Source: a virus. Taken from it: a DNA stretch of 32,222 bases. The DNA is taken from positions 1 to 32,222 of the IMG/VR virus record IMGVR_UViG_3300047552_000519; one strand, written 5' to 3'. Under the pieces are notes generated by a model. The model was not told the origin of the DNA. It searched no databases and was given only the letters and a program-made list of their open reading frames with translations. A program made the translations under genes and the position numbers. Positions 15,660 to 32,222 of this stretch are shown piece after piece; positions within the stretch are counted from its first letter, which is position 1, and the number at the start of each line of letters is the position of its first letter.

Positions 15660-16463
15660 TTAGCTTGCCTGTTTGAACACACTAGCAAACCCATCCGCTT
15701 CAGTGCGGAGTTGGCTGCCAGAAGAACTGGAACGCCCAGTGGATCGCACTGGAGTCGCTCCGGCAAGCCGAGCGGCTGAGGCGCCGGCCGACTCATTTGC
15801 AGACGCAGTCTGCTTCCTGTAAAAACTATCAAACGACTTAAATGCCTGACCATAGGCATATGGGTCAGCTACACGACCATCCTGGCGACGTGCAGTTAGA
15901 ACAGAACGAGTTGCTTGGTCAGCTCTATCCCACCACTTGAGAAACAACTTGTGGGTCTCAGTGCGGGGTTTCTCGTGCCACCCCTCTTCATCAAAGTCTG
16001 CCATATCAAAGGCAAAGGAGGGAGTGACGGTATCGAGCCAGCGCTCAGCGTGCTTATAATCACGCTCAGACAGAATCGGATCAAGAAGAGGCTGAAGTGC
16101 CTCAGGAGACAAATCACGTTGCTTGACAGAAGAAGTCAGCAGCTCCTTAAGAAGAGCACCAACTCCCTCAAACTTAGGATCATATCCAGCAAAGAGCGCA
16201 TCAAACTTGGCAACGAGGTCATCAGGAACTTCAACAGCCGTTTGCTTGCCAAGTGCTGACTGAATACCCTGAAGCTGCTGCTGGAGGGGACTCAGCCGTT
16301 CGCCAAACCTTCCCTCCATAGCAGACATCGACTCGCGCAGCTCACCAAGAGAAGGTTCCCAAGGCTGAGGCTCGATAACTTCATTAGAATCTCCATGACC
16401 GATTCCGAGGTCAGCACCTTCCTCGAACTCATCAAGAAACTTATGTGGGAGATTGAATCGCAT
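15660..16463 (-). CDS. Putative scaffolding protein
   Basis: This 267-residue protein starts MRFNLPHKFLDEFEEGADLG. It has a helical, Gln/Leu-rich coiled-coil-like stretch at residues 40-75 (LRESMSAMEGRFGERLSPLQQQLQGIQSAL) and further amphipathic helices in the middle. It ends in a flexible Ser/Ala-rich, basic segment (SAGASAARLAGATPVRSTGRSSSSGSQ). Acidic helical proteins with a flexible basic tail located between portal and major capsid genes are usually scaffolds that direct shell assembly. No protease motif is visible. The ATG at 16463 overlaps the gene before it by 23 bases and has AGG nine bases upstream. Confidence 0.65.
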   Translation of the reverse strand: MRFNLPHKFLDEFEEGADLGIGHGDSNEVIEPQPWEPSLGELRESMSAMEGRFGERLSPLQQQLQGIQSALGKQTAVEVPDDLVAKFDALFAGYDPKFEGVGALLKELLTSSVKQRDLSPEALQPLLDPILSERDYKHAERWLDTVTPSFAFDMADFDEEGWHEKPRTETHKLFLKWWDRADQATRSVLTARRQDGRVADPYAYGQAFKSFDSFYRKQTASANESAGASAARLAGATPVRSTGRSSSSGSQLRTEADGFASVFKQAS

Positions 16464-16650
16464 CTGTTATTACCTGTTGCTCGAAGGATTGCCCTCTGAG
16501 ATATTCTGTATCTGCGAGGGGAGTTCCTCGGCGGCGCAGCTCCTCAACAGTGAGTCTAGCACGCGCCCCCAAGAAATCAAGGAGACTGTCTCTATCAAGA
16601 TACACTTTACCACCCAACGAGACAGTCTGTACTTTATAATCCAAGCTCAT
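16441..16650 (-). CDS. Small protein between portal and scaffold
   Basis: This 69-residue protein begins MSLDYKVQTVSLGGKVYLDRDSLLDFLGA. The wording KVYLDRDSLLDFL, then RARLTVEELRRRGTPLADTEYLRGQSF, suggests a short strand pair and two helices. It overlaps the portal gene's end by 17 bases and the scaffold-like gene's start by 23 bases, consistent with translational coupling. I do not recognise a family. Such small proteins in this place can be head-assembly factors. Confidence 0.6.
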   Translation of the reverse strand: MSLDYKVQTVSLGGKVYLDRDSLLDFLGARARLTVEELRRRGTPLADTEYLRGQSFEQQVITDAIQSPT

Positions 16651-18799
16651 CTAATGCCTCATCAATAGAAGGCTCAGGAGACACCAAGGGATTCTCTGGA
16701 TCAAGAGCAGCCTCTTGGTACTTCAGTTCCTTGGAGCCTTCCTGGCGAAGCGACTCTTGAGCGATGTTGGCAAGACCTTGGGTCTGGACAGCCTCTCGAG
16801 CCTGCTCGATACTAGCACCCTGGATCTGAGCATCCAGCATCGCCTTGAACTCATCCATGCGAGACTTAAGCTCTTGGATCTGAAGATCAGTCTGAGCTCT
16901 GATGTTAGCAACTTCCACAGCCGGATCAGGTTGATCAGCCGCTGCCTGCAACTGAGCAAGCTCCTCTTCAGTCGCCTTCAAGTCATCATAGTTCAGTCCA
17001 AAGCCTTCAATCTGACGCTGAGCCAACTTCTTAGGAGACAACCCATAAACTGGCTGAATAGCTCGATCTAGAAGCTGAAGCATCGCCTGCTGTTGCAACT
17101 CCTTCTCGACAAGGATCGAAGACCCAAGGGCTTGAGCAACAACATCCGTCTGAGCTTCTTCAGGACCATATAACTGCACCCAGTTGTAACACTCAGTCAC
17201 AATCGGCTTACAGATGTCATCGTCCCAATGCTTGACAAACAACCGAAGATTGGTGGTCGAAGACCCCATGAGAGCATTGGTAACACCTACGGAGTCAGTC
17301 GCCTTTTGACCTTGAAGCAGAAGAGGAAGCCCTGTCGTCTGCTCTGCCATCTGCAGCCAGTAGTTAATCCAAGGAAGAATCTTGTCTAAGTAGTTTGGAA
17401 ACTCAAGAGTCTGAATTGCATCCTTAGGATTTACTTCCTTTCCCGCGAGGGCCATGAGCTGATCTCGCAAAGCACGATAGACCTTATAAGGACGATACTG
17501 GTTGTCGTCTCCATCTAGAGCCTCGATAACACCCTCGAGGTATACCAAACCAAATCCAACAGAGTATCCCAAGTTGTCTTGCGCAGCCCTTACTGCAGCA
17601 TTCAACCCTCTTTGAGGAGTCTCGAGCTGCTCCGGAATCCCAATACCAAACGGAGCATCGGTTCTCTCTTCCCACAACAAGAACCGATAAGGCAGCTTCG
17701 CAGAGTCCGTAGGAAGCGCATTGATCTTGACAAGCTTGTTGTTGATAAACTCTAGTTGAAGGTTCTCAAACCTATCAGTTGCTTCTTCAGAATTAAAACT
17801 CTTCCCAAGCTGAGTCATGATAGACGCAACTTGACTTTCAAATCCAGCAAGCTTCGTGATGTTTACTTCGCCTGTGCGACGCCAGATTTCAAACGACTTC
17901 TTCTTAGAAGAGCCCGTTTCCTTTACTGACTCTGGTTCCTGAGTAAGCAACCAGTCAATCTCCTCAGGGAAATATCCAGGAGTATCTTGTAGCTTGCGAA
18001 GCTGACTCTTGGTAATATCCGGTACAACCTGCCAGATGTGATCCCCATTGTGTAGATTGTTGCCACACTTCTTGTCTGGGTAGCAGTTCTCTACTGGAAT
18101 CTGGTCTAGGGCAGGACGACGAAGCACCTTCATTTCAAGTTCGAACCGCAAAGCAGGTTGGAACTCAGGAGGTGCAGACGCAACCAGCAAATCAACAGCA
18201 GACTTGACATCCTGAGTGAGCTTACGCTCCTCAGGAAAAGGACCATACAACACACCCGTTCCTACAAGTCCTGCTTCTTTGATCTGCTTGCGAGTCTTGG
18301 ATGCGAAATCAGCTTCAGTCAAGTAGTCCTTGATGATCTCTCTGCACTTGGCAATAGCGAACTTGCGAACCTCAGGTGGCTGTTGAAGGCGAATTGCAAG
18401 GCGAGGAGGGAGGCCATCAAGCAATTCTGGCCTGGCCTCGAAATAAGGTCTTAGTGCCTCAACATCCGAAATTGGCGTCTCTTTTAGATCCCAGTTGTCT
18501 CTCTCACCAGCAGGTAACAACAGATCTGCGGTACGAGCGGTTCCAGCATTCGTATATGGTCTGGTAATATTAACAGAGACTGTGGACCGCCCATCCCCAT
18601 CAGGTTCAGAGTATCCTTTGGAAATCGGCCCATCAAGATCCCTTCCTTTTTCAAAGCCAGATGCTCCTTTCTCAGCGTCACCATGAGCATACTGAGCCCT
18701 GGCTCTTCGCCAAATCTCTTCAACTCCAGAGTTCTTACGGTGAGTGATGTCCTCACCACGCTCCTTCAACAATTCATCCAAGTACGACTCAGTATTCAT
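16634..18799 (-). CDS. Portal protein
   Basis: This 721-residue protein begins MNTESYLDELLKERGEDITHRKNSGVEEIWRRAR. Portal features include the N-terminal helical RAxxQYxxGD-type segment, RPYTNAGTARTADLLLP, a central LWEERTDAPFGIGIPEQLETPQRGLNAAVRAAQDNL (the usual region where the portal wing meets the stem), and WLQMAEQTTGLPLLLQGQKATDSVGVTNALM. A long C-terminal helical, Gln/Ala-rich barrel follows (ATEEELAQLQAAADQPDP, LQIQELKSRMDEFKAML). Size and place, after terL and before the scaffold and capsid genes, agree. It forms the dodecameric DNA channel at one capsid vertex. A three-tier hairpin lies 25 bases before the ATG. Confidence 0.85.
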   Translation of the reverse strand: MNTESYLDELLKERGEDITHRKNSGVEEIWRRARAQYAHGDAEKGASGFEKGRDLDGPISKGYSEPDGDGRSTVSVNITRPYTNAGTARTADLLLPAGERDNWDLKETPISDVEALRPYFEARPELLDGLPPRLAIRLQQPPEVRKFAIAKCREIIKDYLTEADFASKTRKQIKEAGLVGTGVLYGPFPEERKLTQDVKSAVDLLVASAPPEFQPALRFELEMKVLRRPALDQIPVENCYPDKKCGNNLHNGDHIWQVVPDITKSQLRKLQDTPGYFPEEIDWLLTQEPESVKETGSSKKKSFEIWRRTGEVNITKLAGFESQVASIMTQLGKSFNSEEATDRFENLQLEFINNKLVKINALPTDSAKLPYRFLLWEERTDAPFGIGIPEQLETPQRGLNAAVRAAQDNLGYSVGFGLVYLEGVIEALDGDDNQYRPYKVYRALRDQLMALAGKEVNPKDAIQTLEFPNYLDKILPWINYWLQMAEQTTGLPLLLQGQKATDSVGVTNALMGSSTTNLRLFVKHWDDDICKPIVTECYNWVQLYGPEEAQTDVVAQALGSSILVEKELQQQAMLQLLDRAIQPVYGLSPKKLAQRQIEGFGLNYDDLKATEEELAQLQAAADQPDPAVEVANIRAQTDLQIQELKSRMDEFKAMLDAQIQGASIEQAREAVQTQGLANIAQESLRQEGSKELKYQEAALDPENPLVSPEPSIDEALDELGL

Positions 18800-23455: not shown

Positions 23456-23947
23456 TGGTGCTATGTGGGGAGGTGCCTGAAGGTTGAGGGTGTAGGGCCA
23501 GTTTCGGCCCTTTGATAGCGCGTAGCACCACGGTTGTCGGTGGTGTAGTGGGTGGTGGCGCCGCCTAGGTAGTCGGGTAGCGGGTGCGAAGCACCCGGCT
23601 TGTAGGCCCGTAGGATTGTTTTGGTGCGAAGCACTACCCATATAGCATGGGTACAAAATGTGTATGATTCTTGCAACCTTATAATAGTTTGTGAGTATGG
23701 ACCGAATATATACAGCTCGCACCATTTGAAAGTACCCCCAGGCTCGAACCACGAAACGCGAGATAGCCCCCGGGGGTGCAGCATGGTGGGCCGTGGAGTG
23801 GGATGACTAGCCTAGTGGTATGTTTGGTGGCGCGCCGTGGCATGGTCCGTGCTATTCGCGCGATCCTTAGATAGGGGCGCACGGCGCTTCGCGCCCCACC
23901 TAGCATCCATAGGCGGCGCCCATCATTGCGCGTGTTAATGGTAAGGA
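23456..23947. other. Hairpin-dense intergenic region between divergent operons
   Basis: About 490 bases contain no convincing gene but many inverted repeats: AGGGCC/GGCCCT (23494-23511), CACCAC/GTGGTG (23526-23545), CGGGTGC/GCACCCG (23581-23597), TGGTGC/GCACTA (23622-23636), TACCCAT/ATGGGTA (23635-23653), the palindrome CCCCCGGGGG (23767-23776), GGGGCGC/GCGCCCC (23874-23897) and GGCGCC (23914-23919). Several have a GAA or TTC loop. A TATAAT-like string lies at 23680 without a clear -35 box. The frames that stay open here are GC-skewed and lack ribosome sites. It may hold control sites or a small RNA. Confidence 0.55.
23581..23636. repeat. Two hairpins sharing the core GGTGCGAAGCAC
   Basis: CGGGTGC-GAA-GCACCCG (23581-23597) and TGGTGC-GAA-GCACTA (23622-23636) share the 12-base core GGTGCGAAGCAC. 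The first is a perfect 7-bp stem with a triloop; the second is 6 bp with one G-T pair. A relative, GGCGC-TTC-GCGCC, is at 23883-23895. They look like a small repeat family of the REP kind. Confidence 0.6.
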
Positions 23948-23976: not shown

Positions 23977-24047
23977 CGCCCCACGAAGAATGAACTAGTA
24001 TTTAGTTGTCGATTTGATGAAGGCGAACCAACCAGAGGCACACAACG

Positions 24048-24245
24048 ATGATCAAGTTTAGATGGTCCAGATATCACAAGCGGCTAGTTGCCTATGGAAT
24101 AGGGGGAATGGTCCAAGTTACCACTAGCGCGTATGGGTGGCCGATGACAGTTGTCACCTGGGAGATTCAAGTGATTCCTGATAATACCCTGCGGGGTATT
24201 ATCCGGGCCACACTTGGACCCGAACAAACAGGACACCAGACATGA
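24048..24245 (+). CDS. Small hypothetical protein, first rightward gene
   Basis: This 65-residue frame starts MIKFRWSRYHKRLVAYGIGGM with GAGG nine bases before the ATG. The protein is basic and aromatic-rich at its start, followed by a beta-type stretch (VQVTTSAYGWPMTVVTWEIQV). The last 20 codons run through a strong hairpin (24177-24206), and the stop overlaps the next ATG (ATGA). If it is not translated, this stretch would instead be a leader for the gene at 24242. Family unknown. Confidence 0.5.
   Translation: MIKFRWSRYHKRLVAYGIGGMVQVTTSAYGWPMTVVTWEIQVIPDNTLRGIIRATLGPEQTGHQT
24177..24206 (+). promoter_or_regulatory. Hairpin upstream of the gene at 24242
   Basis: GATAATACCC (24180-24189) and GGGTATTATC (24194-24203) form a perfect 10-bp stem with loop TGCG, extended by CC/GG after one mismatch. 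It is 36 bases before ATG 24242, which follows the leader AGGACACCAGAC. It lies inside the 24048 gene. Confidence 0.65.
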
Positions 24246-24889
24246 CCGAGTTACAAATCGCCATTGCGACAGCAATGCAAAAACACGTCGATTCACAGTC
24301 GATCATTTTTGCCCTTGGTAAAAAGAATCAAAGCGATTACTTTGCCCAAGCGAAGAAGATCGAAGAATTGACAGACAAGCAATTGCTTGCCCTGTTTATC
24401 TACGGCAAGCGGATTGTTAACGATAAGTACAACGCCTATGCATATCAATGCAAAAACCCGGTACCAACAAAAGGCGAGCCTAAGCCGTTCCCGAAAACCC
24501 CCATGTCAAAAGAGACATGGTTTAAGAATAACTTCGATCAGCTCGGCGTTACTTGGGGGTTAAAAGAGGATCAGGAAGAGACCATATCCAGTCCGGAATC
24601 CGATGGCTGGATCGCCTACTTCAAAAAGGCGCAACACAAAGAAAACGGCAAGCCTGTCGATCTTAAAACCCTGATTCGCGCGCAAAAGACCTATGCGCGA
24701 CAGGCGCTAATTTCCGGCGGGGTTACGGATAACCTAGAGGATATGGTCGAAAAGTACTTCGACCAGATCATCGCACAAGCCGAAGCGGATACCGATGCTG
24801 GTTCGCCAGGGTTTTTTGTGGAACTAGCCCGGAAAAGCAAAGAAACACAAGTCAAAGGGTTCAATCCCAAAGGGTTTACCCCTGTGTAG
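24242..24889 (+). CDS. Hypothetical soluble protein in its own transcription unit
   Basis: This 215-residue protein begins MTELQIAIATAMQKHVDSQSI. It is mostly alpha-helical and Lys/Gln/Asp-rich (KIEELTDKQLLALFIYGKRIVNDKY, GWIAYFKKAQHKENGKP, DLKTLIRAQKTYARQALI), with a Pro-rich middle (NPVPTKGEPKPFPKTPMSKE). There is no signal peptide, membrane segment or Cys cluster. A hairpin and the leader ACACCAGA lie upstream, and a strong terminator follows 10 bases after the stop. With a promoter at 23948 this is an independent unit, like a moron, but I cannot name a function. Confidence 0.75.
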   Translation: MTELQIAIATAMQKHVDSQSIIFALGKKNQSDYFAQAKKIEELTDKQLLALFIYGKRIVNDKYNAYAYQCKNPVPTKGEPKPFPKTPMSKETWFKNNFDQLGVTWGLKEDQEETISSPESDGWIAYFKKAQHKENGKPVDLKTLIRAQKTYARQALISGGVTDNLEDMVEKYFDQIIAQAEADTDAGSPGFFVELARKSKETQVKGFNPKGFTPV

Positions 24890-24898
24890 TCAAAACAA

Positions 24899-24926
24899 AG
24901 CGCATCTTCGGGTGCGCTTGATTTTG
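24899..24926 (+). terminator. Rho-independent terminator with UUCG tetraloop
   Basis: AGCGCATC (24899-24906), loop TTCG (24907-24910) and GGTGCGCT (24911-24918) make an 8-bp stem with one G-T pair, followed by TGATTTTG. It starts 10 bases after the stop codon of the gene at 24242. A related stem (GCATCC-TTT-GGGTGT) is found at 25788-25802. Confidence 0.75.
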
Positions 24927-25341
24927 GGTACACGCAAGACCCTACAAAAAAGGGCCGGGTAGAGTTACCCCCAATAGCAGTTTCCTACTTCCAAGGATTC
25001 AAGGTTAATACCCTGACTAGAATGGTGAGTTATACCTGCTCGGTGGGGTGTACACGCAACACTCGTAACCACACTTTTTAAGGGGGCCATGTACTGTACC
25101 TATATAATATATATATAATTTTTTTATATATAGAGGGCCCTAATCCGCCACTCACATATAGACACTAGGCGACCCACTACATGGCCCCCCTCGAACATGG
25201 TGGTTTTTAAGGGGGCGATTTTTGGCCCCACCTAATCAATCACTTGCCAAATAGGACTGCTTCGCATTAACACCCCATAACCCTGTGCAACCGCCCAACC
25301 GCCCCACAAGCCGTTCGTCCCTTATTATTTACAATCCTTTG

Positions 25342-25369
25342 TTGCACCCCAAAAATAATTTGGTACACT
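25342..25369 (+). promoter_or_regulatory. Rightward sigma70-like promoter
   Basis: TTGCAC (25342-25347), a 16-base spacer and TACACT (25364-25369) are placed to start transcription near 25376, 54 bases before ATG 25430. A small inverted repeat CCAAA...TTTGG lies within the spacer. The leader then holds the hairpin GTGGC-TAC-GCCAC (25396-25408). Confidence 0.55.
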
Positions 25370-25395
25370 TACCACACGACGCACCCACAAAGTCC

Positions 25396-25408
25396 GTGGC
25401 TACGCCAC
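25396..25408 (+). promoter_or_regulatory. Small leader hairpin before the gene at 25430
   Basis: GTGGC (25396-25400), TAC loop and GCCAC (25404-25408). It is a short stem about 20 bases after the predicted start site and 22 bases before the ATG, which has CGGAG upstream. Confidence 0.45.
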
Positions 25409-25429
25409 CAACCAACCGGAGCCCCTACA

Positions 25430-25660
25430 ATGCCCTACTATGTCGATTCACCTATAACGTACAACCGCGACGATGACTTTGTTAAGGCTAATGCCATCGC
25501 GTATGTGGCCTTTTGCGAACCGGGATACAACGGGCGCCGTTGCCTTATTGGTCCGTATTGGTATTGCCTTGCAGTGTGCATAGCTTGGAATGCGGCACGG
25601 GGCTATAACCAAAGCGAGGCGGCTTGGGCCAATCTTAGCGCATTGGTGACGTTCAAATGA
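25430..25660 (+). CDS. Small hypothetical protein
   Basis: This 76-residue protein begins MPYYVDSPITYNRDDDFVKANAIAY, and CGGAG lies eight bases before the ATG. A central stretch (GPYWYCLAVCIAWNAARGYNQSEAAWANLSALV) is rich in Trp/Tyr/Ala and has two Cys, but it is short of a full membrane helix. Its end overlaps the next ATG (ATGA). I do not recognise a family. Confidence 0.6.
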   Translation: MPYYVDSPITYNRDDDFVKANAIAYVAFCEPGYNGRRCLIGPYWYCLAVCIAWNAARGYNQSEAAWANLSALVTFK

Positions 25661-25788
25661 CCCTAACATTCCCCACCATTGCGGAAACGGTCGCCACATT
25701 GTACGAATCCGGCGCCGCAAAGGGTATTAGCACCGCCGCGAAGCGATACCCGCATGACAAAGAAACAAAGTTGACCACCCTGACATAG
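25657..25788 (+). CDS. Mini-protein overlapping the gene before it
   Basis: A 43-residue frame begins MTLTFPTIAETVATLYESGA at the ATGA overlap. It looks like a short helix bundle with a basic centre (KGISTAAKRYPHDKETK). The stop codon lies inside the left arm of the hairpin 25782-25808. Too short for confident assignment, but supported by the coupling overlap. Confidence 0.5.
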   Translation: MTLTFPTIAETVATLYESGAAKGISTAAKRYPHDKETKLTTLT

Positions 25789-25808
25789 CATCCTTTGGGT
25801 GTTATGTC
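25782..25808 (+). promoter_or_regulatory. 12-bp leader hairpin with triloop
   Basis: GACATAGCATCC (25782-25793), loop TTT, GGGTGTTATGTC (25797-25808): twelve pairs including two G-T. It contains the preceding stop codon and stands 30 bases before ATG 25838. A second small stem GGGC/GCCC (25810-25823) follows, then the ribosome site in ATAGGAGACACCAG. No T-run follows, so it is not a simple terminator. Confidence 0.7.
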
Positions 25809-25837
25809 CGGGCGATCCTGCCCATAGGAGACACCAG

Positions 25838-26068
25838 ATGATTGACAAAAGCTATGCTTTACACGTGCGTTGGGCAATGCGGTATATCGCCATTGTGCGT
25901 GATACGCAAAAGCAATTTGTTGGAAATTTGCCAGCAATGGAGATCGGAGACGCGATGAATGACGCCCTTGAAAGATTGGCAGAAACAAATACAGCTTATG
26001 CCACTGCACTAGAAATAGAAGCGGAGCTAAATAGGCATGGCTTCAAATTGACTAAAATGGACAAATAG
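25838..26068 (+). CDS. Small helical hypothetical protein
   Basis: This 76-residue protein starts MIDKSYALHVRWAMRYIAIVRD. The ATG at 25838 is chosen because AGGAG lies seven bases upstream. Residues 35-65 are helical and acidic (EIGDAMNDALERLAETNTAYATALEIEAELNRHG), and the end is basic. It is preceded by a hairpin and the leader ACACCAGA shared with the gene at 26142. Function unknown. Confidence 0.6.
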   Translation: MIDKSYALHVRWAMRYIAIVRDTQKQFVGNLPAMEIGDAMNDALERLAETNTAYATALEIEAELNRHGFKLTKMDK

Positions 26069-26098
26069 GCATCCCGCCGCACGGACGCGGCTCCTAGA

Positions 26099-26125
26099 AC
26101 AAGCGCCCGATCCCCGGACGCTTGT
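26099..26125 (+). promoter_or_regulatory. Leader hairpin before the gene at 26142
   Basis: ACAAGCG (26099-26105) pairs with CGCTTGT (26119-26125), and an inner CCG/CGG stem (26107-26109, 26115-26117) is separated by a C/A mismatch. It is directly followed by ATAGGAGACACCAGA and the ATG at 26142. Confidence 0.65.
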
Positions 26126-26141
26126 CATAGGAGACACCAGA

Positions 26142-26318
26142 ATGACCCGCCCATACTTCGCAGAAAACACATCCCAGCTTGATCAAATCATCAAGCAAGC
26201 CGACTGGCTGTGCCAAGAATCAGGATTCCCAACCGTGGATGATCTCTATTGGGAAGATCCTGAACTGTTCGTCACCCTCAACATAGAGTGGCGCCAGAAT
26301 CGGGAGAGCAACCAATGA
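26142..26318 (+). CDS. Small acidic protein
   Basis: A 58-residue protein starting MTRPYFAENTSQLDQIIKQA, helical with several Trp and acidic clusters (DWLCQESGFPTVDDLYWEDPELF). The ATG at 26142 has AGGAG upstream within the leader AGGAGACACCAGA. The stop overlaps the next ATG (ATGA). A small acidic early protein may bind a host factor, which is inference. Confidence 0.6.
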   Translation: MTRPYFAENTSQLDQIIKQADWLCQESGFPTVDDLYWEDPELFVTLNIEWRQNRESNQ

Positions 26319-26521
26319 GAATCCTATACAATGTTACGAAAGACAAGTTCTTTGCTGGTCTTTCCCCAAGTGGGAGACCGAAATGGCAAGATCCAAACGA
26401 AACAGGGGAAGTTGTATTATTCTGTACAGATGAAGAAATAGAAGAGGTTATTGCCTACCTGAAAATAGAAGATGACCTCTACAGTCGAAGTGTAACAATC
26501 TCAAGAGTTATCCCACAGTAG
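26315..26521 (+). CDS. Small hypothetical protein
   Basis: A 68-residue protein starting MRILYNVTKDKFFAGLSPSGR at the ATGA overlap with the preceding gene. A mixed beta then helical pattern (GEVVLFCTDEEIEEVIAYLKIEDDLY) ends with a strand (RSVTISRVIP). It forms a coupled pair with the gene before it. No known family recognised. Confidence 0.6.
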   Translation: MRILYNVTKDKFFAGLSPSGRPKWQDPNETGEVVLFCTDEEIEEVIAYLKIEDDLYSRSVTISRVIPQ

Positions 26522-26529
26522 AGTCCAGC

Positions 26530-26569
26530 GACCAGCGTAACCATCCGCTGGTCCCTGCACTTTCGCAGG
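26530..26569 (+). promoter_or_regulatory. Double leader hairpin before the gene at 26580
   Basis: GACCAGCG (26530-26537) pairs with CGCTGGTC (26546-26553) around an 8-base loop, an 8-bp perfect stem. Next, CCTGC (26554-26558) pairs with GCAGG (26565-26569) around a 6-base loop; the second stem's 3' arm leads straight into AGGAG, so it may hide or expose the ribosome binding site. Confidence 0.65.
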
Positions 26570-26579
26570 AGGAGATCAC

Positions 26580-26759
26580 ATGAGCACAGAACAATCTGAT
26601 GCAAGATTCTACATGGTCATTCATCTGAATGAAAACCCATATGCCTCTTGCACAGAACTAGCAGAAATTGCCGCCATATTGTGTGACCATCCAGAATGGC
26701 TGGATGATCCAGATAGTTTCATCTGGGATCTGGCCTTTGAAGTCTGGGAGCAATCATGA
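26580..26759 (+). CDS. Small acidic protein
   Basis: A 59-residue protein beginning MSTEQSDARFYMVIHLNENP, with helical, acidic C-terminal half (AAILCDHPEWLDDPDSFIWDLAFEVWEQ). The ATG at 26580 has AGGAG and a 5-base spacer. It resembles the product at 26142 in having a single Cys, several Trp and DDPD/EDPE clusters, so the two may be related. Stop overlaps the next ATG. Confidence 0.6.
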   Translation: MSTEQSDARFYMVIHLNENPYASCTELAEIAAILCDHPEWLDDPDSFIWDLAFEVWEQS

Positions 26760-26881
26760 AACCACAATCCTACCGCTTCCGCCTTTCCCGGTTTGTCTCC
26801 GGGCGAACCTTGTTTAACCGCTACCCAAAGAAACCTATTGACACCACCCGCCCCCGTGGTGTACAATCATCCCCACAATAA
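26756..26881 (+). CDS. Basic mini-protein spanning a promoter
   Basis: A 41-residue frame starts MKPQSYRFRLSRFVSGRTLF at an ATGA overlap. It is strongly basic (about ten Arg/Lys). Its 3' part overlaps the promoter-like TTGACA...TACAAT (26838-26867), so the coding call is uncertain. It might be a short RNA- or DNA-binding peptide or just an open frame. Confidence 0.4.
   Translation: MKPQSYRFRLSRFVSGRTLFNRYPKKPIDTTRPRGVQSSPQ
26838..26867 (+). promoter_or_regulatory. Strong sigma70-like promoter with dyad in the spacer
   Basis: TTGACA (26838-26843) and TACAAT (26862-26867) with an 18-base spacer. A 7-bp dyad ACACCAC (26841-26847) / GTGGTGT (26856-26862) starts within the -35 box and ends at the -10 box, well placed for a repressor operator. 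Start would fall near 26874, 27 bases before ATG 26901. Confidence 0.6.
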
Positions 26882-26900
26882 CCCACAACCCGGAGCACCC

Positions 26901-27143
26901 ATGTCATCCCCTGACTTCTCCTCCCTCTCTCCAGGTTGCACCAAGTCAGAGGCAGCAGTGCGCCTCTACCCTGGACTCGTCTTCGATTGCACGTTGCCTC
27001 AAAGCTGGGTAGACACCTGCTTGAAAGAGAGCGACTTCGATGTGCGCCCACATTTCGTCTGGGGCTATCCTAATGGGCTATTCTTTGGCAACCCGTATCC
27101 AGTATCCCAAACTGGCGCCAATTTCCTTAAAAATTTCGACTAG
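26901..27143 (+). CDS. Small hypothetical protein
   Basis: An 80-residue protein with start MSSPDFSSLSPGCTKSEAAVRLY; the ATG at 26901 has GGAG five bases upstream and follows the promoter at 26838. It has Cys/Trp-rich beta-type stretches (PGLVFDCTLPQSWVDTCLKE, HFVWGYPNGLFFGNP). Earlier frame starts are upstream of the promoter and are not needed. Function unknown. Confidence 0.55.
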   Translation: MSSPDFSSLSPGCTKSEAAVRLYPGLVFDCTLPQSWVDTCLKESDFDVRPHFVWGYPNGLFFGNPYPVSQTGANFLKNFD

Positions 27144-27145
27144 CT

Positions 27146-27337
27146 ATGACGCCAGCAACCCTGAAGGAGCTACGCCCAGGTGACACCATCATCCACCTCC
27201 CAACCAACAAAAGAGGAATCATAGTCCAACCAGTGCAATACAGCACGCATTCTGGCTATCACGTCAAAGCCAAATGTGCAGGTTGTATCTCACTAATAAA
27301 CTCGTTCAACGCTCAAGATTGGGCAAAACTTGACTAA
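27146..27337 (+). CDS. Small SH3-like hypothetical protein
   Basis: A 63-residue protein, MTPATLKELRPGDTIIHLPTNKRGIIVQPVQYS..., with the strand-turn pattern LRPGDTIIHL...KRGIIVQPV of small SH3-like or KOW-like barrels. There is no strong ribosome site: the gene follows the preceding stop by two bases and is probably coupled. Two Cys (CAGC) near the end could bind metal. The role is unknown. Confidence 0.55.
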   Translation: MTPATLKELRPGDTIIHLPTNKRGIIVQPVQYSTHSGYHVKAKCAGCISLINSFNAQDWAKLD

Positions 27338-27344
27338 CCTTTGT

Positions 27345-27377
27345 GGGGAGGGTTGGCACCACCAACCACCTCTTCCC
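27345..27377 (+). promoter_or_regulatory. Leader hairpin before the gene at 27392
   Basis: GGTTGG (27351-27356), loop CACCA, CCAACC (27362-27367), extended through bulges by GAG/CTC and GGG/CCC up to 27377. It ends 14 bases before ATG 27392, which has CGGAG upstream. It follows the same pattern as the other rightward leaders. Confidence 0.6.
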
Positions 27378-27391
27378 ATACGGAGCCACAA

Positions 27392-27655
27392 ATGACAATA
27401 AAAGATTGTGCTAACGCATTCTCAGCCGGAGAACCATACAAAGGCCCATATTACCACACCGATGGTAAAAGCTACTGGCTCTATGATAGTCAAATTGCCA
27501 CAGTGTGCAATGGAAAACTGGAACTATCATACTGCGGTTGGTTCACTCCTCCTACCCATAACCATCTAAAACAAATCGCAGCTGCTTTTGGAAAGAAGCT
27601 ACCCTATAGCTATGGGAAAAACAATCAACCACCAACTGACACTTTCATTCTCTAG
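27392..27655 (+). CDS. Small hypothetical protein
   Basis: An 87-residue protein starting MTIKDCANAFSAGEPYKGPYY, Tyr/Pro-rich and beta-like (YHTDGKSYWLYDSQIATVCNGKLELSYCGWFTPP), with a later helix (HNHLKQIAAAFGKKL). ATG 27392 has CGGAG six bases upstream. No recognised family. Confidence 0.55.
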   Translation: MTIKDCANAFSAGEPYKGPYYHTDGKSYWLYDSQIATVCNGKLELSYCGWFTPPTHNHLKQIAAAFGKKLPYSYGKNNQPPTDTFIL

Positions 27656-27664
27656 GAGCCTCCC

Positions 27665-27745
27665 ATGTTCATCCTCGGCCTCTTTATCGGTGCTAACATC
27701 GGCTTCTTCGTCGCTGCCCTCATGTGTGCCGCAAAGGAGAAGTAG
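27665..27745 (+). CDS. 26-residue glycine-rich membrane peptide (DUF3789-like)
   Basis: MFILGLFIGANIGFFVAALM followed by CAAKEK, encoded from ATG 27665 with AGGAG six bases upstream. One hydrophobic helix with a G-x-x-x-G/N pattern and a short charged end. The wording resembles the short DUF3789 membrane peptides found in phages and some bacteria (F-L-G-L-F-I-G-A-x-x-G). Such peptides have no known function. Its end contains the ribosome binding site of the next gene. Confidence 0.6.
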   Translation: MFILGLFIGANIGFFVAALMCAAKEK

Positions 27746-27746
27746 C

Positions 27747-27923
27747 ATGGATCATAATTTCTGGCCCTTTTACCTGTATATAGAAGGTGGAGTAAAGAGA
27801 TACTTCCACATGATTTATTGGAAATCCCCCACATATCTCATCCACCCCTCTGATCGCATTGTGGATCTTCGCATCTCTGCAATGCTTTCCGCTTCTGGCT
27901 GCCTTGACGCACCGCTGGAGTGA
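27747..27923 (+). CDS. Small hypothetical protein
   Basis: A 58-residue protein starting MDHNFWPFYLYIEGGVKRYFH. The ATG at 27747 sits one base after the preceding stop with AAGGAG seven bases upstream. The N-terminal part is aromatic-rich and strand-like (FYLYIEGGVKRYFHMIYW). No recognised domain. Confidence 0.55.
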   Translation: MDHNFWPFYLYIEGGVKRYFHMIYWKSPTYLIHPSDRIVDLRISAMLSASGCLDAPLE

Positions 27924-27927
27924 GACA

Positions 27928-28149
27928 ATGTACATGACTGCCTTTGATAAGAAGTCAATAGAGATAGCCACTACACACGGAGAGGAGGGCTCCTGGACCC
28001 GTTTCGACTTCCACGGTGCAGAGTACGACACCCTAACCATCTTCCACACTGGCCCTCTCTTCATCCCCAGCAACGACCACCTGATGTGGCTCACCATGTT
28101 GGATCTGGATCTGGGCCATCGCATCGAGGCACTCTCATGCAATTCATAG
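27928..28149 (+). CDS. Small hypothetical protein
   Basis: A 73-residue protein with start MYMTAFDKKSIEIATTHGEEG at ATG 27928 (GGAG seven bases upstream), beta-rich (FDFHGAEYDTLTIFHTGPLFIP, HLMWLTMLDLD). Its final 13 bases overlap the start of the gene at 28137. Function unknown. Confidence 0.55.
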   Translation: MYMTAFDKKSIEIATTHGEEGSWTRFDFHGAEYDTLTIFHTGPLFIPSNDHLMWLTMLDLDLGHRIEALSCNS

Positions 28150-28439
28150 ACATCATTCCTGTCATTCTTGACGGAGAAGACTATCACGCCGGAATCCTAT
28201 CCTACTATCCTGGCGATCCCGGTCGCCTTTCTGGCCCACCTGAGCACTGCTATCCACCAGAACCTGAGGAAGTTGAGTGGGAGCTGTGCGATGAAGAGGG
28301 TAATATTCTAGTCGTATTACCACTAACAGAGAAGCAATACCAAGACATCGAGAGCCAGATTCTAGACTTCATCCACAACGCTCAGAATGAGGACTTCGAC
28401 GAGCCAGACAATGAGCTTTGGGGCGATATTCCTTTTTAA
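28137..28439 (+). CDS. Conserved-type early phage protein of unknown function
   Basis: A 100-residue acidic protein starting MQFIDIIPVILDGEDYHAGIL with GAGG seven bases upstream. The segment YYPGDPGRLSGPPEHCYPPEPEEVEWELCDEEGN followed by a helix (LTEKQYQDIESQILDFIHNAQ) is a pattern I associate with a small protein family found in many phages. It has a short beta hairpin, a Pro-rich loop and a terminal helix with an acidic tail. The biochemical role is not known. Confidence 0.65.
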   Translation: MQFIDIIPVILDGEDYHAGILSYYPGDPGRLSGPPEHCYPPEPEEVEWELCDEEGNILVVLPLTEKQYQDIESQILDFIHNAQNEDFDEPDNELWGDIPF

Positions 28440-28451
28440 CCACTCACCGAA

Positions 28452-28485
28452 ACCCAGCCTCCGCTGGGTCGCCCACGGATCGGGC
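28452..28485 (+). promoter_or_regulatory. Leader hairpins before the gene at 28530
   Basis: ACCCAGC (28452-28458), CTCC loop, GCTGGGT (28463-28469): a perfect 7-bp stem. GCCC (28471-28474) pairs with GGGC (28482-28485). AGGAGG and then AGGAG (28513-28522 region) follow before ATG 28530, so two ribosome sites are present; a GTG at 28511 could begin a short frame of 32 residues after the first. Confidence 0.6.
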
Positions 28486-28529
28486 CTGACGAGCCACCAG
28501 GAGGTGAAAAGTGAACCAGGAGCCAACAA

Positions 28530-28760
28530 ATGTCAGTAACTCTACTTCCCTACAGCGTATCCTTAAAAGCTTGGGCATACTACACTTGCAACCAGTGCGG
28601 TCTTGTTGAAAAAGGAGGAGTATTCAGAGCAGACCTTGAGGAAGTTCCTAATCTGAGAAACTTGGAGAAAACAGTATCAAATTCCCACCTTCCCATTGGT
28701 TGGGCTGGGTACGGGATTGGAGTTGCATACTGCCAGAATTGTAAAAGAAATAGAGAATAA
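28530..28760 (+). CDS. Small zinc-ribbon-like protein
   Basis: A 76-residue protein starting MSVTLLPYSVSLKAWAYYTCN. Two knuckles are seen: CNQCG at residues 20-24 and CQNCKRNRE near 68-71, with about 45 residues between them. This is a zinc-ribbon-type layout as in many small phage nucleic-acid-binding proteins. ATG 28530 has AGGAG seven bases upstream. Target unknown. Confidence 0.6.
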   Translation: MSVTLLPYSVSLKAWAYYTCNQCGLVEKGGVFRADLEEVPNLRNLEKTVSNSHLPIGWAGYGIGVAYCQNCKRNRE

Positions 28761-28765
28761 TCCTA

Positions 28766-28993
28766 ATGAACACTACAGAATACCTCCTTCCCAGCCATTG
28801 GGCCTCTTACCTAATAAACGGAGACGCCTCCGGACTTGAAGATGAAGAGATCAAAGAAATCGACTCCTGGTATGAGTCAGAAGGAGTCAGATCTTGTGTG
28901 GGAGTAGAAGAAGATGGATTCCACTGGGGCAACGATGCCTCGAGTCTTGGTGGAGATTGCAGCGTCTACACGTTCATGGAGCTACCATGCTAA
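28766..28993 (+). CDS. Small acidic protein, DUF6926-like
   Basis: A 75-residue protein beginning MNTTEYLLPSHWASYLINGDA. The pattern LPSHWASYLINGDASGLEDEEIKEIDSWYE, then CVGVEEDGFHWGNDASSLGGDCSVYTFME, matches a small family common in plasmids and phages that I recall as DUF6926; I am not certain of the name. It is acidic with one long helix and a beta C-terminus. Its end overlaps the next ATG by seven bases. Confidence 0.65.
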   Translation: MNTTEYLLPSHWASYLINGDASGLEDEEIKEIDSWYESEGVRSCVGVEEDGFHWGNDASSLGGDCSVYTFMELPC

Positions 28994-29166
28994 GTTTCAC
29001 CCCAGACCCTCACACTGTCTCTTTCATCATAAAAGAACTCAGACATAGACATGACTTAGCTGTTGATGTTTATGGGACAACTGAAGAGCGACAACGCGCT
29101 AAGATTGTCTTTGAGAGATCAGTAGTCGCTCTACTAGAATACCTCTACAAAAACACCAGAGAATAA
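28987..29166 (+). CDS. Small helical protein
   Basis: A 59-residue protein starting MLSFTPDPHTVSFIIKELRHR with GGAG five bases upstream of ATG 28987. Two helices are suggested (SFIIKELRHRHDLAVDVYGT and ERQRAKIVFERSVVALLEYLYKN). No known family. It ends four bases before the glycosylase-like gene and is probably cotranslated with it. Confidence 0.55.
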   Translation: MLSFTPDPHTVSFIIKELRHRHDLAVDVYGTTEERQRAKIVFERSVVALLEYLYKNTRE

Positions 29167-29170
29167 CCTC

Positions 29171-29587
29171 ATGCAAGTCTTCCTCCCCTATCCTGATCTC
29201 CGATCCTCAGTCTGTTCCCTTGACAACCGTCGCCTCGGCAACCAGATCTACCGCGAAGCAAAAACCCTAATCTCTGGAGGTTGGCCCAATCATCCAGCCG
29301 CCAAAATCTGGCGAGACCATAAACACGCTCTTGCCGAATACTGTCTCTATGGTCTAGAAGAGCTAAATGATCGTGGTCGATCCTATCCTCATTGGTTCAA
29401 GTTCTTTATCGACATCCATGAGACAGAACCAGATACCGGCTTGCCTCCCATCATCGGCAACGAGCGATTCCATTCTGGGCATCGCGCTGCGCTTCTCGCA
29501 AAAGACCCAGAATGGTATTCCCAATTCAACTGGACCGAGACACCTGAACCCGATACCAAGAAAGCCTATATTTGGAGCTTTCCATGA
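29171..29587 (+). CDS. Pyrimidine-dimer DNA glycosylase-like (MSMEG_6728-type) protein
   Basis: A 138-residue protein starting MQVFLPYPDLRSSVCSLDNRR. The sequence MQVFLPYPD..S...LDNRRLGNQ..REAKTLI..GWPNHPAAKIWRDHKHALAEYCL and the ending FHSGHRAALLAKDPEWYSQF...YIW match the family often annotated as pyrimidine dimer DNA glycosylase/endonuclease V in phages and bacteria (also as MSMEG_6728). Members are proposed to remove UV damage. The Arg/His-rich segment RLGNQ and the HRAALLAKDPE helix are the strongest signals. The T4 DenV catalytic arrangement is not visible, so repair function is inferred from annotation of related proteins. Confidence 0.7.
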   Translation: MQVFLPYPDLRSSVCSLDNRRLGNQIYREAKTLISGGWPNHPAAKIWRDHKHALAEYCLYGLEELNDRGRSYPHWFKFFIDIHETEPDTGLPPIIGNERFHSGHRAALLAKDPEWYSQFNWTETPEPDTKKAYIWSFP

Positions 29588-29769
29588 ATACCTGTGAAAC
29601 CTGCAAACATAGAGATAATAAACCATCGTACTCTCATCCAAAGTTCTTCTTATGCACCAGGCTGTATGACGATGAGGATTTTGCAATTCCAGTAGATGAT
29701 TACCCAGATAACCCCCGCATTGTAATAAGTCCAAACTTTGGCTGCATACTTTGGGAGCCCAAGCCATGA
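29584..29769 (+). CDS. Small Cys-rich protein
   Basis: A 61-residue protein with start MNTCETCKHRDNKPSYSHPKF at the ATGA overlap with the gene before it. CETCKH, LCTRL and PNFGCILWEPK give a CxxC followed by two more Cys, the arrangement of short phage zinc-binding proteins. The start is set by the ATGA overlap. Ends in an ATGA overlap with the helix-turn-helix gene. Confidence 0.6.
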   Translation: MNTCETCKHRDNKPSYSHPKFFLCTRLYDDEDFAIPVDDYPDNPRIVISPNFGCILWEPKP

Positions 29770-30050
29770 CCCCAATAGAAATCTCTCTTGCAATCTCCCT
29801 CTACAATTCAGGCAAGACCCTAGAAGAAGTTGGAGACATTTTAGACTACAATCATACCACCATATGGTACAACATCAAGACCAAAGTCATAATGCGACCG
29901 AAAGGCTGCCCCAAAGGTAGTAGAAATATAAAGAGATACTTAACCATTAAAACCCTTCGAGACTCTGGCCTGACCTTAAGAGAAATAGGAGAGAAGCTAC
30001 ACCTATCAAAACAGCGAGTTTATCAAATCCTAACTCAGGAGCAACAATGA
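29766..30050 (+). CDS. Tandem helix-turn-helix DNA-binding protein
   Basis: A 94-residue protein starting MTPIEISLAISLYNSGKTLE. Two successive HTH units are visible: residues about 5-40 (ISLAISLYNSGKTLEEVGDILDYNHTTIWYNIK) and 58-92 (YLTIKTLRDSGLTLREIGEKLHLSKQRVYQILT). Both have the GxTLxEIG.xL..S...V/IxxxI pattern of Hin- or sigma-4-like HTHs. A basic linker with KGCPKGSR joins them. Two domains in 94 residues suggest a compact regulator recognising a bipartite site. It is a plausible regulator of the phage operons. Confidence 0.75.
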   Translation: MTPIEISLAISLYNSGKTLEEVGDILDYNHTTIWYNIKTKVIMRPKGCPKGSRNIKRYLTIKTLRDSGLTLREIGEKLHLSKQRVYQILTQEQQ

Positions 30051-30244
30051 CCCGTCGCATCTTCCTCCAACCAGAAGAACTTCTTGAAGTGATGTCCTCC
30101 GATGGCACCTCCTGCCTCAAACTTGAACTTCAAGAGATCACCAACCTTCATGGAATCACTACCTCTGTCGTCGTCCTCTGGCCCCAACCCAGAACCAAAA
30201 TAACTGTAGGCGACATCAATTCTCAATTCGACACGGAGCTATAA
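30047..30244 (+). CDS. Small beta-rich hypothetical protein
   Basis: A 65-residue protein starting MTRRIFLQPEELLEVMSSDGT at the ATGA overlap with the double-HTH gene. Sequence alternates hydrophobic and polar (SCLKLELQEITNLHGITTSVVVLWPQPRTKITVGD). It is coupled to the regulator gene before it, so it could be its partner. No family recognised. Confidence 0.55.
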   Translation: MTRRIFLQPEELLEVMSSDGTSCLKLELQEITNLHGITTSVVVLWPQPRTKITVGDINSQFDTEL

Positions 30245-30301
30245 AGCATTTCAGGACTGCTAATCCAGGAAACCCCCCTAACAATCAAATTGGAAACTAT
30301 C

Positions 30302-30997
30302 ATGACTCGTCAGACCTCCCTGTTTCTCGCTATCGCTTGTCTTTCTGGCTCTGCTTTCGCCACCAACTATGGCAACTTCGATCCAGACTCGTCCAGTAGT
30401 CGGGCTGATTCTAGCTCCAGCAGCCGCTCTAATGCCAACTCCAGCAGTCGTTCCAAGGCTGTGGGGGTCGGCATTGGTCTGGGAGTTGGTATCTCCACAT
30501 CCAAGGGTGGCTCCGCTCGCAACAACACCACTGTCAATACTGGAGACGTTGCCAATGCAGCCAGCGCAACCGGAGGCGTAGCCTCTGCACAAGGGGGCTC
30601 CTCAACTTCCCAGGGCGGCACCGCTTCCGCCTCCAACGGAAACCAGTCCACCAGCGTAACCTTCACCAGCCCAGCAAGTACTACTAGCACGGTATATCAG
30701 GCCGGCAAAACTCGGGCATACATCCAGAACACTCCCGACGTGTCTCTGTTCACCGCGCAGCCGACCGCTCCCTGTATTGTCACAGGTGGGGCAGCCGGCT
30801 CTGGTCCTGGATTATCTCTTGCAATCAACGGCGGATTGAAGGATGATACCTGTTCCGTATTAGAAATCCGTCGTCTCGCTGGCGACAACCCAGCCATTCT
30901 TCAAAAGACTGACTCCATCCTAATGGCTGAACTAAACAAGATCGCCTCTAAGTCTCAGCCCGTCAAGCGAGACACTTCTGGCGGTTTCGGCTACTAA
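30302..30997 (+). CDS. Secreted Ser/Gly-rich protein
   Basis: A 231-residue protein starting MTRQTSLFLAIACLSGSAFA, a Sec signal peptide with AxA cleavage near residue 20. Residues 25-60 are a Ser/Asn/Arg-rich low-complexity run (SSSSRADSSSSSRSNANSSS), then Gly-rich (GVGIGLGVGISTSKGG) and Ala/Gly/Ser-rich stretches. The C-terminal 80 residues are ordered with two Cys (APCIVTGG and DDTCSVLEIRRLAG). Phages often carry such periplasmic low-complexity proteins near lysis or cell-surface genes. ATG 30302 is chosen over an upstream TTG because the signal peptide begins there. Confidence 0.75.
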   Translation: MTRQTSLFLAIACLSGSAFATNYGNFDPDSSSSRADSSSSSRSNANSSSRSKAVGVGIGLGVGISTSKGGSARNNTTVNTGDVANAASATGGVASAQGGSSTSQGGTASASNGNQSTSVTFTSPASTTSTVYQAGKTRAYIQNTPDVSLFTAQPTAPCIVTGGAAGSGPGLSLAINGGLKDDTCSVLEIRRLAGDNPAILQKTDSILMAELNKIASKSQPVKRDTSGGFGY

Positions 30998-31005
30998 CCT
31001 TTCTT

Positions 31006-31021
31006 GTGCCATGGATGGCAC
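31006..31021 (+). promoter_or_regulatory. Leader hairpin before the gene at 31037
   Basis: GTGCCA (31006-31011), loop TGGA, TGGCAC (31016-31021): a 6-bp stem. It lies eight bases after the preceding stop and 15 bases before ATG 31037, which has AGGAG five bases upstream. Confidence 0.55.
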
Positions 31022-31036
31022 TTCTTAGGAGCAATC

Positions 31037-31237
31037 ATGTACCAACTATTCTACGTAGACCTCGCCGGAAACGAGCGCATCCTCGAAGAAAATGAAACCT
31101 ATGAGAAAACTTGCGGGAGCTTTGTAAAGATGCGTAAAGCATATCCCAATGCAGTCTTTTTCATAACCAACATGGAAAATGTTGACGTTGACTGCGAAGA
31201 TGGCCTCACCGACGAAGAGCGAGAACTTCACCCATGA
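31037..31237 (+). CDS. Small acidic hypothetical protein
   Basis: A 66-residue acidic protein starting MYQLFYVDLAGNERILEENET with AGGAG upstream of ATG 31037. Two strands with a helix between (SFVKMRKAYPNAVFFITNMENVDVD) suggest a small alpha/beta fold. ATGA overlap with the next gene. Family unknown. Confidence 0.55.
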   Translation: MYQLFYVDLAGNERILEENETYEKTCGSFVKMRKAYPNAVFFITNMENVDVDCEDGLTDEERELHP

Positions 31238-31488
31238 AACTGACCCTCTCCCCAGAAGCCATTTTACGCGCTCGCCAGAAACCTGAAAAGCACAAACTTA
31301 AAGGCGAGCCCCGTCCATTCACTCCACTCAACATTAGAAACCTAACTCCTGCCCAGCACTTCGATAACGGTGCAGTTGTTTCAACCCGAAAGCAAGAGGT
31401 AACAAAAACTGACCCACTTCTGCTTCGCATCAGAGAACTCGAAGCTGAGGTCACTCGCCTGAAAGGCATCCTCGAGGAACTCCTATGA
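31234..31488 (+). CDS. Small protein with C-terminal coiled coil
   Basis: An 84-residue protein beginning MKLTLSPEAILRARQKPEKHK. The N-terminal part is basic and Pro/Asn-rich (LKGEPRPFTPLNIRNLTPAQHF). Residues 62-84 form a strong amphipathic helix (LLLRIRELEAEVTRLKGILEELL) with leucine heptads, probably a dimer-forming coiled coil. ATGA overlaps at both ends. Possible regulator or adaptor. Confidence 0.6.
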   Translation: MKLTLSPEAILRARQKPEKHKLKGEPRPFTPLNIRNLTPAQHFDNGAVVSTRKQEVTKTDPLLLRIRELEAEVTRLKGILEELL

Positions 31489-31697
31489 GCTTTTATGTCT
31501 CCTTCAGTAGAGTAAAATCTATTTCCTATGGCAAATCTATGATCTCAAAAGATCAAGTATCAAGAGAACTCATCATCGAACATGAGGACTTTCAAGGCAA
31601 CGTCCATAAAACTTTTATCCCCCTCTTCACTGAAAACAACCTCTCAGCGTTTGCCAACCTAACAATCAAGGATGAGGAGACAAGCAATGTTGATTGA
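31485..31697 (+). CDS. Small hypothetical protein
   Basis: A 70-residue protein, MSFYVSFSRVKSISYGKSMI..., starting at ATGA 31485. Beta-type sequence with a helix near the start; FANLTIKDEETSNVD is its C-terminus. Overlaps the next gene by 11 bases. Unknown family. Confidence 0.5.
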   Translation: MSFYVSFSRVKSISYGKSMISKDQVSRELIIEHEDFQGNVHKTFIPLFTENNLSAFANLTIKDEETSNVD

Positions 31698-31908
31698 AAG
31701 CAAAATGACAACTACAGAAACTGTTACAGTAACAATTACTCATAAGGATATTGTAGAATGTGTTTTATCAAATTTTAAAGTGGGTAAAGATAGAAGTAAT
31801 CTAATCTCTTGCACAATATCCTGGACAGAGAACGGCTGGCCTAATCAAAACATGGATCTTGATGAAGATCCACTCAAAGTAGAGCTTGTCTATAGGACAG
31901 AAAAATGA
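31687..31908 (+). CDS. Small hypothetical protein
   Basis: A 73-residue protein starting MLIESKMTTTETVTVTITHKD. ATG 31687 is chosen because GAGGAG lies seven bases before it, while an earlier ATG at 31672 has no such site. Sequence is beta-type with alternating Thr/Val (TETVTVTITHKDIVECVLSNF). The stop overlaps the ATG of the helicase gene. Unknown family. Confidence 0.55.
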   Translation: MLIESKMTTTETVTVTITHKDIVECVLSNFKVGKDRSNLISCTISWTENGWPNQNMDLDEDPLKVELVYRTEK

Positions 31909-32222
31909 CTCCCACCTCCCAACAGCTCGCCTACTATGCCTCTGGCACCGATCCACTTTCGGGTTCCATCGCCCTCTGTGCTAGAGCAGGAACCGGAAAG
32001 ACCTTCACCCAGCGGGAGCTTGCATCTCGCCTCCCAGGAACCGGCCTCGCCACCAGCGTGCTTCGCTCCACAGTTTCTGACCTAAAAGCCTCATTCCCAC
32101 CAAATTGGTCAGTCCAAGGACTTCACTCTCTTGGCTATGCCGGAATCCGAAAGAAGCTAGATGTAATGGTAAAGGTGGACAAGAATGGAAATGCCCTCTA
32201 TGAGTTCTGCAAAGAGACCCTA
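31905..32222 (+). CDS. UvrD/Rep-type (SF1) DNA helicase, N-terminal part
   Basis: The first 106 codons of a gene cut by the window edge, starting MTPTSQQLAYYASGTDPLSGS. The Walker A motif is ARAGTGKTF (residues 26-34), followed by TSVLRSTVSDLKASFPPNWSVQGLHSLGYAGIRK, which fits motif Ia and the THSLG-type element of superfamily 1 UvrD/Rep helicases as found in phages. Such a helicase would unwind DNA in replication or recombination. The rest of the gene, with motifs II-VI, is not in the window. ATGA overlap with the gene before it. Confidence 0.75.
   Translation, partial: MTPTSQQLAYYASGTDPLSGSIALCARAGTGKTFTQRELASRLPGTGLATSVLRSTVSDLKASFPPNWSVQGLHSLGYAGIRKKLDVMVKVDKNGNALYEFCKETL

Follow-up and report, generated by a model that had tools for sequence, protein, structure and literature searches.

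A type II hammerhead ribozyme and stop-adjacent hairpins as probable punctuation of a phage operon

Introduction

What do the hairpins between the genes of a phage operon do? We asked this of IMG/VR record IMGVR_UViG_3300047552_000519, all 32,222 bases of which were analysed and are called the window below. The record has no end repeats and is probably a fragment of a virus genome. Its leftward late genes (portal-like, terminase) extend to about 23,300 and a series of small rightward genes begins at 24,048. A sequence-only reading had placed plus-strand hairpins shortly before the ribosome sites of nine of these rightward genes, and had suggested one shared scheme by which the RNA is stabilised or processed or its translation is gated. 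Here we report that one of the nine sites belongs to a type II hammerhead ribozyme (28445-28502), a firm identification made from sequence and predicted fold. The operon is probably punctuated by ribozyme cleavage at 28470 and by stop-adjacent 3'-end hairpins elsewhere.

Results

All nine stems were present where they had been placed (Table 1). The one at 28452-28485 is precisely stem III, the cleavage site and stem I of a hammerhead, the catalytic core around it having been missed. Read by eye, the RNA runs C-GAA-(ACCCAGC CUCC GCUGGGU)-C^-(GCCC ACGGAUC GGGC)-CUGACGA-G, with all conserved hammerhead bases in type II order. The conserved core (CUGANGA, GAA, A15.1-U16.1 and H17) is present in the window and in three other copies. 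The permuted order is also found, stems I and III being closed by loops and stem II open, with both ends of the element in stem II. Stem II extends from the 10.1-11.1 pair (G28493-C28448), its length in the four copies being 1, 3, 1 and 2 pairs. In every copy loop I starts with A(C/A)GGA, and a second GGA follows G10.1 at a constant spacing of six bases. These fixed words may mark a site of tertiary contact or of protein binding.

The other copies came from related phages. A DNA identity search of 50,697 phage records gave no match to the window, none were found via the protein of gene 24242, and the window terminase has at best distant similarity to known terminases. Searching IMG/VR by terminase recovered G001 (locus L002, a 13-kilobase fragment), G002 (L003, L011 and L016), G003 (L004 and L013) and G009 (the L205 contig), all 67-75% identical, and further relatives at 45-57%. 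A scan of the relatives for the type II order picked up a copy on the minus strand of L003 in G002 (3492-3540). The motif derived from the window and G002 copies matched two of 2.9 million viral contigs, G002 itself and the new G008 (L192). G008 was fetched by the ribozyme motif alone and later proved to be a relative, with a terminase about 49% identical to that of the window and with the helicase and other genes of the window operon, which supports the ribozyme. A second copy was then found in G008; the two lie at 17885-17932 and 18619-18667 of L192.

A covariance model built from three copies scored the unseen fourth at 41.9 bits (E value 5e-11). The Rfam Hammerhead_II model itself matched the window copy and, independently, both copies of G008. 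Across all four, standard pairs fill 95.8% of pair cells, both partners differ at 7 of 12 pairs and 0 of 500 shuffles did as well, in an alignment fitted to the named structure, so that the pair count leans towards that structure. Compensatory changes occur in all three stems, and the pattern is lost when the partner is shifted by one base. The strict motif has four matches in 162 kilobases of the phage group, none in 6.5 megabases of shuffled sequence and none in 1.24 megabases of other DNA. Beyond the known copies a wider motif scan gave only stemless chance matches, and a scan demanding the tail GGA returned the copies of G002 and G008 (both of the latter) plus a single chance match, in L209, which falls within a coding region and lacks stems. 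In the other gaps no hammerhead remnants with at most one core mismatch were found, save a weak match, on the minus strand, within a tail gene.

Several results weigh against a functional hammerhead. The Rfam gathering score of 37 bits, a curation threshold and not a structural feature, is not reached by the window (30.2 bits) or by the G008 copies (32.7 bits, E value 0.0049; 28.3 bits, E value 0.072), and the model finds no match for the G002 copy; no Rfam family in the window reaches its cut-off. Stem II is only 1-3 base pairs (bp) long over the four copies. No loop I-tail pseudoknot of at least four pairs was found, with at most three pairs in any copy; this contact is frequent, not universal, in type II hammerheads and so does not define them, and a hammerhead with a one-pair stem II was active in a published case. 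With so short a stem II and no pseudoknot, cleavage could be slow. No recognisable copy was found in G001, of which we have the fragment, or in G003 or G009. The folding energy of the window ribozyme is not unusual (z -0.3), so that stability against shuffles, which the earlier reading had named as its refuting test, would by itself have thrown out the most valuable element. The low score, the single pair of stem II and the absent pseudoknot would suit a chance or dead look-alike made of two ordinary hairpins. That explanation is very improbable given the full core in 4 of 4 copies, the compensatory changes in all three stems, the fact that the motif by itself led to a relative, and the absence of control matches.

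The gene following the hammerhead in the window (28530-28760) encodes a small protein that contains two CxxC pairs. In G008, gene 18048-18611, which encodes a Ser-rich, secreted-looking protein, has a copy on each side, and the single G002 copy stands just ahead of the counterpart of that gene. In the window the ribozyme lies two kilobases earlier than the Ser-rich position. Perreault et al. (2011; PMC3088659) described prophage hammerheads flanking single genes and suggested that they process long phage transcripts into smaller messenger RNAs (mRNAs). Their proposal would also suit the copies found here. Our copies resemble those type II hammerheads (RF02276) in the order stem II, GAAA, stem III, UC-cleavage, stem I, CUGANGA and in every strictly conserved base of the core. 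They also share the closure of stems I and III, an open and very short stem II, a location in phage gene gaps and the pair of copies around one gene in G008. Our copies differ in that three score 28-33 bits, below 37, and that of G002 goes undetected, and in having a GGA in loop I and a GGA tail instead of a loop I-tail pseudoknot of at least four pairs.

We also assessed whether the gaps in general are structured. Within 24000-32222, six hairpins of -10 kcal/mol or lower fall in 1,246 nucleotides (nt) of non-coding sequence, against two in 6,977 nt of coding sequence. The 80 nt before the start folded better than dinucleotide shuffles at five of the nine genes (24242, z -4.0; 25838, -3.6; 26142, -5.0; 26580, -4.3; 26901, -2.3) and no better at the other four (25430, -1.2; 27392, -1.4; 28530, -0.3; 31037, -0.9). 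For gaps of 30-220 nt between mechanical gene calls, z values combined by Stouffer's method were -6.7 in the window, -6.8 in G009, -6.0 in G001, -4.9 in G008 and -4.5 in G002; G003 (-0.65) was the only exception among the five relatives. Gaps more stable than shuffled sequence in the window and 4 of 5 relatives indicate that most of the phage group does have structured gaps. No hairpin was found in the gap 30245-30301.

The hairpins do not keep a fixed place ahead of the ribosome site, as had been proposed. Their distance to the start is broad, 15-76 nt, whereas the best hairpin of a gap tends to begin 3-13 nt past the upstream stop. Over five phages, 0 of 5,000 random placements were as good; in the window alone, with six gaps, stop anchoring is not significant, a further point on the unfavourable side. 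Nor was translation gating supported in general. Compared with controls of shuffled upstream sequence, Shine-Dalgarno pairing was inside the control range at all nine genes, the closest to gating being 26142, 28530 and 25838, whose pairing was reached by 6%, 11% and 13% of controls, respectively. T-runs are indeed lacking, with a mean of 1.6 T in the 8 nt past the stem and at least five T in 1 of 19 hairpins. Stop-anchored position, few T-runs and control-level Shine-Dalgarno pairing make these hairpins resemble 3'-end features of the upstream gene and not leaders of the downstream gene.

A single leader element before ribosome sites, gating translation or stabilising the downstream mRNA, is thus quite unlikely. 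It would account for the hairpins preceding most uncoupled starts, for G009, where nearly every gap combines a hairpin with a GGAGAC-type ribosome site, for the two occurrences of CATAGGAGACACCAGA in the window, and for the hairpin at 26099-26125, whose CTCCTA can pair the Shine-Dalgarno sequence of gene 26142 (paired 0.86 against 0.58 in controls). It does not account for stems that cluster by the stop, pair the ribosome site no more than controls do and have no common sequence: over all hairpins only CATAGGAGACACCAGA, twice in the window, and the GCCANGGATGGC family recur. The nine sites themselves comprise the ribozyme, a promoter, a hairpin within an open reading frame (ORF), stop-anchored hairpins and sites at chance level. 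The observation of inter-gene hairpins is thereby partly confirmed, as a real but mixed set. Of the roles first suggested, processing is the best reading at 28445-28502, whereas gating in general and the shared scheme were not supported. The further claim that coupled genes lack hairpins fails for 24177-24206 if ORF 24048-24245, ATGA-coupled to 24242, is real.

A somewhat unlikely alternative is that the plain hairpins weakly terminate or attenuate transcription by the host RNA polymerase, as intrinsic terminators do, and so grade expression along the operon. Like intrinsic terminators they are G+C-rich and sit just past stops; TTCTT follows the hairpin at 31006 and the related G003 copy, and G003 has a clear terminator at the homologous end of gene 24242. 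Nearly all of them lack the T-run, and the same phages (G003, G008) have T-rich terminators elsewhere. The place homologous to 24898-24919 carries a long T-run in G003 and a T-less GTGCCAAGGATGGCAC hairpin in G002. From general knowledge, repetitive extragenic palindromic (REP) elements and T7 RNase III sites are also inter-gene hairpins near the upstream stop with no T-run. Those in the window differ from them in sharing no sequence with them and in varying from gap to gap.

The recurring GCCANGGATGGC hairpin, with extra paired flanks, has six copies (one in the window, four in G002 and one in G003), all shortly past a TAA stop. The window and G003 copies both have TAACCT before and TTCTT after the hairpin. 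We regard it as a 3'-end element without an existing name. Its 16-base form occurs in many bacterial genomes among the matches listed and so is not phage-specific; the 16-nt hairpin GTGCCAWGGATGGCAC was rejected as a host marker, and no host is inferred, because many unrelated taxa were among the matches listed.

CANGGANG loops fit the consensus of CsrA/RsmA, and the hairpins that carry them (26076, 31006 and the G002 and G003 copies) might be sites of this host translational regulator. Such loops are enriched, with 2 in the window region against 0.1 expected and 4 in G002 against 0.07 expected, and they are found at 26076, 31006 and several G002 sites but not in most of the nine hairpins. The word in the G002 ribozyme copy is hammerhead loop I, the GCCANGGATGGC stem is also conserved although CsrA does not need it, the GGA at 31006 does not overlap the ribosome site, and these phages have no CsrA gene. 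We therefore give this explanation little probability. A CsrA decoy was likewise rejected as the principal explanation: GGA loops are truly enriched, but part of the enrichment comes from ribozyme loop I, in phages without a CsrA gene. For AYGGAY loops a TwoAYGGAY-type RNA was also considered and had no Rfam match.

Two of the nine sites are outside the punctuation set, 24177-24206, within an ORF, and 26841-26862. The latter is no leader hairpin; its dyad is the spacer of a promoter (26838-26867) inside ORF 26756-26881 and is possibly an operator. Sigma-70-like promoters in which a dyad covers the -35 box or the spacer were seen at this site and at 25341-25370 in the window, and in relatives (GGGTTGACAACCC types) on the minus strand of L003 near 4982 and 6330 and of L205 near 3900, 6280 and 6660. 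This suggests a phage repressor operator common to the group.

An AT-rich island (TATATAATATATATATAATTTTTTTATATATA) follows gene 24242-24889 at 25082-25189, bordered by a 15-nt inverted repeat, GGGGGCCATGTACTG/CACTACATGGCCCCC. A comparable island is in the same place in G001, G002, G003, G008 and G009, and it is possibly a replication origin. Small GGCTTCGCC-type palindromes (GGGGCTTCGCCCC, GGTGGCTTCGCCACC) are scattered through 1-3400 of L002 in G001, and the window has GGTGCGAAGCACC near 23581-23634. A G003 gene (L013, minus strand, 15900-16820) contains a long run of TWNSGTWHNG-like repeats.

Table 1. Coordinates of features in the window and, where a locus is named, in related phages.
Feature	Position	Strand	Evidence or remark
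Type II hammerhead ribozyme (identified from sequence)	28445-28502	+	Rfam RF02276 Hammerhead_II, 30.2 bits, E value 0.0057 (E-value mode)
Hammerhead core parts	C11.1 28448; GAA 28449-28451; CTGACGA 28486-28492; G10.1 28493; tail GGA 28500-28502		
Stem III	28452-28458/28463-28469		7 bp; A15.1-U16.1 is 28452/28469
Stem I	28471-28474/28482-28485		4 bp; loop ACGGATC
C17	28470		Cleavage expected at 28470/28471
Gap with ribozyme	28440-28529	+	Between genes 28137-28439 and 28530-28760
Hairpin within ORF 24048-24245	24177-24206	+	Strong; z -4.0; gene call
Terminator-like hairpin past gene 24242-24889	24898-24919	+	
Short hairpin, leader of first gene past AT-rich island	25396-25408	+	Chance level, z -1.2
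12-bp hairpin across the stop codon (25786-25788) of ORF 25657-25788	25782-25808	+	Fold
Hairpin GCCGC-ACGGAC-GCGGC, 7 nt past stop 26068	26076-26091	+	Missing from the sequence-only reading
Hairpin with outer bases CTCCTA...TAGGAG	26099-26125	+	Fold z -5.0
Two neighbouring hairpins, first 8 nt past stop 26521	26530-26569	+	z -4.3, gap p 0.01
Sigma-70-type promoter TTGACA-18-TACAAT, near-consensus	26838-26867	+	11/12 consensus matches
Hairpin past stop 27337	27345-27377	+	Marginal: z -1.4, gap p 0.04
Hairpin GTGCCATGGATGGCAC, 8 nt past stop 30997	31006-31021	+	GCCANGGATGGC family
GCCANGGATGGC copies	Window 31008-31019; L011 4038, 6669, 17133; L016 9659 (minus); L013 5224 (minus)		
Pyrimidine dimer glycosylase family protein	29171-29587		PF03013, E value 9e-11
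Helix-turn-helix protein	29766-30050		PF04545/PF13384
Ser-rich (SSSSRSNSSS) protein	Window 30302-30997; L192 18048-18611; L003 minus 3423-2843		Signal peptide, variable C-terminus

Discussion

The rightward operon would carry structured punctuation between its genes, assembled from different parts. At the ribozyme, the transcript is predicted to cut itself between C28470 and G28471, parting the two mRNAs. Stem III and a 2',3'-cyclic phosphate would then form the 3' end of the upstream mRNA, while the downstream mRNA, carrying gene 28530, would have a 5'-hydroxyl followed by the hairpin of stem I. Cyclic-phosphate and 5'-hydroxyl ends are known hammerhead chemistry, and the enzymes that usually degrade RNA in bacteria would act poorly on either end. 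In most other gaps, the hairpin without a T-run 3-13 nt past the stop probably serves as a cap or shield for the upstream mRNA at its 3' end, or else as a mark for processing, a role suggested by its position.

The GGA words raise a further idea. The copies could form a phage sub-class of the type II hammerhead in which a paired contact between the two GGA words, or a host protein that recognises GGA, such as CsrA/RsmA, bound to both, replaces the pseudoknot. We consider this unlikely. If the protein-bound version were true, self-cleavage of the operon would be tied to the regulatory state of the host.

Type II hammerheads are already known from phages, and the copies described here were previously unannotated in two related phages. 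They place ribozymes between the genes of a phage group whose copies score too low for standard annotation to pick them up. The exact cleavage position is predicted, and ribozymes and plain hairpins would fill the same role within one group, that of separating genes that share a transcript. Members of the group have none, one or two copies at comparable places, and comparing them would make the role of phage hammerheads testable.

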